Shown here: positions 1,267 to 1,660 of the stretch, piece after piece | Position numbering within the stretch: position 1 is the stretch's first letter | Layout: every line of letters starts with the position of its first letter | DNA from: Bacteroidota bacterium | GTDB taxonomy: Bacteria; Bacteroidota; Bacteroidia; Chitinophagales; LD1 | Direction of reading: 5' to 3' | Assembly: GCA_947461105.1 (NCBI GenBank) | Contig: CANHIG010000009.1 | Span: 1 to 35,826, forward strand | Length of the DNA: 35,826 nt | Notes under the pieces: generated by a model | Databases searched by the model: none | What the model was told of the DNA's origin: nothing | What the model saw: only the letters and a program-made list of their open reading frames with translations | Made by a program: the position numbers and the translations under genes

Positions 1267-1357
1267 TGGCGGAGAGAGAGGGATTCGAACCCCCGGACCG
1301 CTCATCACGGTCGGCTGTTTTCAAGACAGCTCCATTCAACCACTCTGGCATCTCTCC
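1267..1357 (-). tRNA. tRNA-Ser (anticodon UGA)
   Basis: Read on the minus strand, the acceptor stem GGAGAGA (1357-1351) pairs with TCTCTCC (1277-1271). It is followed by discriminator G (1270) and an encoded CCA (1269-1267). The anticodon arm is GCTGT-CTTGAAA-ACAGC, giving anticodon TGA for serine UCA codons. A long class-II variable arm is present (GACCG...CGGTC), as expected for serine, and the T arm reads GGGGG-TTCGAAT-CCCTC. All arms are intact, so the gene should be functional. A consensus promoter lies immediately upstream and a terminator hairpin immediately downstream. Confidence 0.97.
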
Positions 1358-1362
1358 GAGGG

Positions 1363-1392
1363 CAAAAATAGAAAAGCAGATTGATTTTCAAA
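1363..1392 (-). promoter_or_regulatory. Promoter of tRNA-Ser
   Basis: Minus strand: -33 box TTTG (1392-1389), 18-nt spacer, -7 box TATTTTTG (1370-1363). This fits the Bacteroidota TTTG-N19-TAnnTTTG consensus. The -7 box ends 5 nt before the first base of the tRNA, so transcription would begin at or next to the mature 5' end. The same 32-bp block recurs at 1629-1660. Confidence 0.75.
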
Positions 1393-1408
1393 CCATCACA
1401 TGAAAAAA

Positions 1409-1479
1409 GATTTCGAATCCCCGTCAAATCTACATTTCATCACGGTCGTCACGCCTTAAAGCGTGATCCATTCAACACT
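1409..1479 (-). pseudogene. Decayed tRNA-Ser-like copy
   Basis: This stretch aligns with the intact tRNA-Ser gene. Two blocks are identical (TCATCACGGTCG and TCCATTCAAC on the plus strand), and the T-arm block GATTTCGAATCCCCG is nearly so. The blocks are in the right order and orientation. The acceptor stem is gone on both sides and the variable arm no longer pairs. The anticodon arm is now TCACG-CTTTAAGG-CGTGA, a paired stem with an 8-nt loop and no serine anticodon. It looks like the remnant of a second tRNA-Ser gene, in tandem with the intact one. Confidence 0.65.
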
Positions 1480-1495
1480 TTTGATATTATACCAG

Positions 1496-1611
1496 TTTGA
1501 CATTAAAAACAGTCTTTGTCATACTGACGATAGGAAGTATCTCTTGTATACAGATTCTTCACTCCGAAGACTTCGTTTTGAATGACAAAACAAGCCAATA
1601 TTAATGTCTAA
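1496..1611. repeat. Palindromic miniature element, copy A
   Basis: A 116-bp segment is bounded by outer inverted ends (TTTGACATTAA at 1496-1506; TTAATGTCTAA at 1601-1611) and inner ones (TTTGTCAT at 1515; ATGACAAA near 1582). Its interior (AGATTCTTCACTCCGAAGACTTCG) closely matches copy B at 30232-30335 in reverse orientation. It has no coding capacity. It resembles the GTCAT...ATGAC intergenic palindromes I know from Bacteroidota genomes (REP/MITE-like), and would be moved in trans if mobile. Confidence 0.7.
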
Positions 1612-1628
1612 TTAGAATTACTTCTAAA

Positions 1629-1660
1629 GCACAAATAGAGAAGCAGATTGATTTTCAAAC
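1629..1660 (-). repeat. Second copy of the tRNA-Ser promoter block
   Basis: This is a 32-bp direct repeat of 1362-1393 with two mismatches. On the minus strand it keeps TTTG, the 18-nt spacer and a -7 box changed to TATTTGTG (consensus TATTTTTG). It lies upstream of the tRNA-Ser remnant at 1409-1479, with the miniature element 1496-1611 between them. It may still give weak transcription toward the tRNA. Confidence 0.8.

Follow-up and report, generated by a model that had tools for sequence, protein, structure and literature searches.

Transfer RNA genes are favoured landing sites of mobile DNA, and the islands that target them duplicate the 3' half of the tRNA while an intact tRNA is kept. 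The nearest described case that we found for the Bacteroidota elements considered below is SegB, a GIY-YIG homing endonuclease whose free-standing gene lies among the clustered tRNA genes of T-even phages (PMC13096335, citing Brok-Volchanskaya 2008). As summarized in that source, SegB cuts inside tRNA genes and drives the tandem amplification of a unit made up of tRNA and nuclease, with a reported cleavage motif of RAWTSGAAC (PMC13096335).

The window analysed here is the whole stretch of 35,826 nucleotides from a Bacteroidota genome (G000), and both ARAGORN and Rfam find only one tRNA gene in it, a tRNA-Ser(UGA) on the minus strand at 1267-1357. An initial annotation, made from the letters of the window, had described next to this gene a second, dead copy with its own promoter, split by a miniature element. 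The features of the locus are as follows.

1267..1357, minus strand: intact tRNA-Ser(UGA) (ARAGORN; Rfam RF00005, 54.8 bits)
1362..1393, minus strand: promoter block of the intact gene, Bacteroidota-type TTTG ... TATTTTTG
1409..1425, minus strand: remnant T arm of the dead copy, GACGGGGATTCGAAATC, from the alignment
1437..1448, minus strand: remnant variable arm of the dead copy, matching the intact gene at 12/12 positions
1449..1466, minus strand: replaced anticodon arm, TCACGC-TTTAAG-GCGTGA, a perfect 6-bp stem
1467..1479, minus strand: remnant D arm of the dead copy, AGTGTTGAATGGA, from the alignment
1496..1611, no strand assigned: miniature repeat element, core GATTCTTCACTCCGAAGACTTCGTT..GAATGACAAA, separating the dead body from its old promoter
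1629..1660, minus strand: old promoter block of the dead copy, its -7 box degraded to TATTTGTG
1679..2650, minus strand: brkB/yihY-type gene (Pfam PF03631), the syntenic marker

A lineage-specific tRNA-Ser(UGA) duplicate with a replaced arm and an inserted repeat

The promoter block had been said to recur with two mismatches, and this is borne out: 1362-1393 and 1629-1660 form a 32-nt repeat (94% identity) with a spacing of 267, and a TATTTTTG-like sequence is kept 5' of the tRNA-Ser(UGA) gene in the relatives. Between the two blocks lies the tRNA-Ser-like body, for which two exact blocks in common with the intact gene had been claimed. Both are real, one pairing 1302-1313 with 1437-1448 and the other lying in the D arm. 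In a local alignment to the intact tRNA the remnant scores 43 over 1412-1479, as against a mean of 15.9 (sd 2.9) and a maximum of 30 for 1000 dinucleotide shuffles. The D, variable and T arms are recognisable and the acceptor stem is not. The covariance scan that had been proposed for this body gave no match to the Rfam tRNA model (RF00005), even at E<=10, and a functional tRNA was rejected on that ground. What remains is what would be expected of a tandem-duplication tRNA-Ser pseudogene: similarity to the neighbouring tRNA, a duplicated flank and relatives that lack the extra copy.

The history of the locus can be read from the relatives. The brkB gene stands directly upstream of tRNA-Ser(UGA) in seven of them, including the only congener compared (G001), and in none of the seven is a second tRNA copy visible in the gap between the two genes (the 160 bp searched upstream of the tRNA cover the whole gap in each). 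Six relatives have 55-81 bp between the brkB stop codon and the tRNA (57 in G001) and one has 150 bp, as compared with 321 bp here. Since the excess over G001 (321-57 = 264 bp) almost matches the 267-bp promoter spacing and the relatives lack the copy, a tandem duplication of promoter and tRNA in the lineage of the window is the simplest origin. That the dead copy arose by tandem duplication of the promoter/tRNA-Ser(UGA) unit in this lineage is well supported, and the same may be said of the order of events that the initial annotation had proposed, namely duplication, then insertion of the repeat element inside the duplicate, then decay.

The 116-bp element itself is matched at five other places in this genome (E 5e-28 to 2e-5), the dispersal expected of a miniature repeat, and some of the aligned copies are similar to it beyond the core, into the outer flanks. 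One of the five lies inside the window, at 30231-30291; its core is 89% identical and is adjoined by another partial copy of the core, which suggests that this repeat family is frequent. As had been noticed at the outset, the element lies between promoter and body of the dead copy, and its ends are inverted, although the inverted repeat is short and imperfect (TTTGACATTAA / TTAATGTCTAA). It folds better than shuffled sequence (z -2.3). In being multicopy, with inverted ends and no ORF, it resembles the miniature inverted-repeat and palindromic repeats of bacteria, but it differs from them in that no target-site duplication could be clearly defined.

A striking feature of the dead copy is its anticodon arm, which had already been seen to pair with different bases; this is indeed the case, the arm being a perfect hairpin at 1449-1466, TCACGC-TTTAAG-GCGTGA, unrelated to the intact arm, GCTGT-CTTGAAA-ACAGC. 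The flanking D-arm and variable-arm sequences are nearly identical to those of the intact gene, and only the anticodon arm between them differs. A stem that has been exchanged and yet is perfectly paired is not what single-base changes in a decaying gene would yield; the arm has been replaced as a block.

Arm-swapped tRNA copies and small GIY-YIG genes in Bacteroidota

Comparable copies occur in the sister genus g3, where essentially only the anticodon arm is replaced, by the hairpin TCCCGAT-N-ATCGGGA, and where each copy stands beside an intact gene for the same tRNA. As a control, the search pattern read backwards gave no match. The copies found are these.

G013: Ser(UGA), Lys, Arg, Thr and two copies of Pro
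G003: two copies of Ala, and Asn
G022: Thr
G017: Ser(UGA) and Ser(GGA)

Some of them are shortened at the 5' end. The arrangement seen in the window, with the swapped copy upstream, having its own promoter-proximal sequence, and the intact gene downstream, is also seen for Ser(UGA) in G017 and for Pro in G013. In a Ser(GGA) copy of G017 (L112, G017:C1), only CGCTTG of the anticodon arm has given way to the hairpin TCCCGATAATTATCGGGA, while GAAAGCGTG is still present; here the arm has been ruined instead of swapped.

At least 119 such stretches turned up in a scan of 84,980 species genomes, mostly from Bacteroidota among the 80 listed, a lower bound with a biased composition because the class was sampled with one fixed hairpin. 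The listed taxa include Chryseobacterium, Flavobacterium, Pedobacter, Algoriphagus and Mucilaginibacter, among others. The listed Bacteroidota loci hold 83 matches to the hairpin, their Bacteroidota label being taken from record titles that are in part broad. In 43 of these 83 matches a 3' half identical in type belongs to an intact tRNA within 1.5 kb, upstream of the swapped copy in 42 of the 43, and in 39 of the 43 the base that follows the hairpin is tRNA index 43-45, the end of the anticodon arm. The hairpins vary internally with the pairing kept (TCCCGA..TCGGGA, TCCCGC..GCGGGA). The TCCCGAT...ATCGGGA hairpin also occurs, at L101, L107, L113 and L120, inside other repeat elements with no tRNA nearby.

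An ORF of about 85 aa with a GIY-YIG catalytic domain (Pfam PF01541) often ends just 5' of the hairpin. Such an ORF stands directly 5' in 44 of the 83 matches; both the ORF and a matching intact tRNA are present in 28, at least one of the two in 59 and neither in 24, some of the latter being chance matches or incomplete contigs. Of 49 such ORFs, 47 lack an internal stop, the Y/Y/G/R/H/E catalytic pattern is invariant, and dN/dS is below 1 in all 20 of the comparable pairs (median 0.52), many of these pairs being distant. At L135, L139, L157 and L169 the GIY-YIG ORF and the arm-swapped tRNA 3' half form units repeated in tandem at one tRNA gene with a period of about 330-390 bp, and related Chryseobacterium loci at tRNA-Arg differ in their number of units; together, the tandem repetition and the variable copy number in Chryseobacterium suggest mobility or amplification. 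Tandem arrays are also found at L175 and L192, and copy number differs between related species.

Closer to the window, G001 and G013 each have three small GIY-YIG ORFs within about 510 bp of a tRNA, and fMet and Pro elements with TCCCGCTTTCAAAGCGGGA-like hairpins are present in the congener G001. The window genome itself has a broken Pro element, a disrupted GIY-YIG ORF between tRNA-Pro 3' ends (C32:20288-20491). Two loci show a mirror-image order of similar parts: at L300 (G022:C177) and L301 (G021:C23), tRNA-Leu 5' parts are broken by a different hairpin (CCTGCCTG...CAGGCAGG), after which come a GIY-YIG ORF and, last, the intact tRNA. The congener also has a dense cluster of eight low-scoring, aberrant tRNAs (L085, G001:C40:14180-14980), possibly a phage or plasmid array.

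A candidate selfish element and the place of the window copy

These observations lead us to propose that an intact element would consist of a GIY-YIG ORF of about 85 aa and, 3' of it, a tRNA 3' half bearing a TCCCG...CGGGA arm, beside an intact gene for the same tRNA. The predicted nuclease would cleave a tRNA gene that lacks the element, at the anticodon arm or close to it, and repair from the element-bearing copy would follow, with the tRNA halves and their flanks serving as homology. The outcome would be one complete tRNA and one arm-swapped copy, the latter neither a target nor able to decode; copies devoid of the ORF, such as that of the window, would be remnants. Bacteroidota chromosomes may well carry a minimal selfish class of this kind, a small GIY-YIG nuclease joined to a swapped-arm tRNA 3' half, whose hairpin would give immunity to cutting with no harm to decoding and which would spread across many tRNA specificities, leaving scars of the type seen in the window. 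We found no prior description of such a class in the open-access literature searched.

Does the window copy belong to it? We think this probable: the copy would be an ORF-less, decayed relative of the GIY-YIG/tRNA arm-swap elements. In favour of this we count that exactly this arm has been replaced as a block, by a perfect hairpin in an otherwise tRNA-like copy, that the layout occurs twice in relatives, and that the best match to the hairpin is found among the elements of the congener (TCCCGCTTCTAAAGCGGGA, TCCCGCTTTCAAAGCGGGA; score 10.5, reached by random hairpins at 3e-4). The nearest is TCCCGCTTTCAAAGCGGGA, from which it differs by one compensated pair, A-T for C-G. Against it we count that, because of that one stem pair, the window has TCACG...CGTGA in place of the TCCCG...CGGGA of the class, and that neither a GIY-YIG ORF nor a remnant of one is found at the locus, although arm-swapped copies without an ORF also occur in relatives. 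Moreover, the window copy lies upstream of the intact tRNA, whereas intact elements are mostly found downstream of it. A TCACG/CGTGA-type element arm was found nowhere else in 398 genomes of the order; TCACGC...GCGTGA is present in five of the 398, the other four cases being ordinary-looking tRNA arms or chance, and the idea that it is an order-wide element arm was rejected on that count. An ochre-suppressor tRNA was likewise discarded: TTA-like triplets stand in the loops of the window and G017 copies, but CGA in that of G013, and others vary.

The main competing account keeps to ordinary tRNA duplication, the arm of the upstream copy having come from tRNA-Ser(GGA) by gene conversion or recombination before decay, with no link to GIY-YIG genes. 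Another serine isoacceptor had been suggested as the donor from the start, and tRNA-Ser(GGA) may be that donor, since in the same genome it has an identical CACGC/GCGTG stem; its arm is the best among the G000 tRNA arms tested and almost as good as the congener's hairpins (8.5, random 6e-4), and the absence of a nuclease ORF from the locus is in keeping with it. The element hairpins of the congener nevertheless fit better (10.5 vs 8.5), both in the closing T-A pair, where Ser(GGA) has G..T, and in the TTTAA-type loop. A conversion confined to the anticodon arm would also be unusual, and arm-swapped tandem Ser(UGA) copies with an unrelated hairpin recur in G013 and G017. We regard the Ser(GGA) origin as a rather unlikely, if serious, competitor. 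What the initial reading missed is a third source for the arm, the GIY-YIG-linked arm-swapped copies that are common in the relatives and across Bacteroidota.

Other explanations fare worse. The duplicated tRNA 3' halves and the intact tRNA kept beside them might suggest that tyrosine-integrase elements using tRNA anticodon loops left the arm-swapped copies as attachment-site scars, but both strands of the anticodon stem are replaced rather than one side of a crossover, and the downstream terminators are duplicated too; these two points led us to reject what was in any case an improbable account. Furthermore, the units are of only about 110-390 bp and the ORF found in them is a GIY-YIG gene, not an integrase. 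Even less probable is the small structured RNA, expressed from the distal promoter, that had been offered as an alternative fate for the remnant: a hairpin has been kept and a promoter-like block lies 5' of it, but the fold is no better than that of shuffled sequence (z-score -0.6 to -0.9), the tRNA model gives no match and no copy is seen in relatives, while the distal -7 box is degraded and the 116-bp repeat parts the promoter from the body. Finally, the presence of the same hairpin in other Bacteroidota repeats and in non-tRNA DNA, along with the partial replacement at L112, points toward the plain insertion of a palindrome into tRNA loops; as a full account this was set aside, the association with GIY-YIG genes explaining more. 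In the reading that we favour, the window copy received a foreign hairpin as its anticodon arm, probably the signature of a family of tRNA-gene selfish elements, and underwent the insertion of the repeat and decay.

Comparison with known systems

If the proposal is correct, these would be among the smallest autonomous selfish elements, consisting of a single-domain nuclease and an altered tRNA half. They would account for odd tRNA pseudogenes, as well as for short GIY-YIG ORFs, of Bacteroidota genomes, and the way in which such an element avoids cutting the essential tRNA genes of its host would become directly testable. Like ordinary tandem-duplication tRNA pseudogenes, the window locus has a doubled promoter and tRNA body of which one copy has decayed; it differs from them in that the anticodon arm of this copy has been exchanged as a block for another perfect hairpin. 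With SegB, the Bacteroidota elements have in common a GIY-YIG gene beside tRNA genes and tandem units of tRNA and nuclease, cutting being only predicted in the Bacteroidota case. The account of SegB in PMC13096335, as far as it bears on this point, describes no fixed hairpin in place of an anticodon arm. SegB is also phage-borne, whereas the Bacteroidota elements are chromosomal, encode a protein of about 85 aa and are linked to a tRNA 3' half in which the anticodon arm is swapped.
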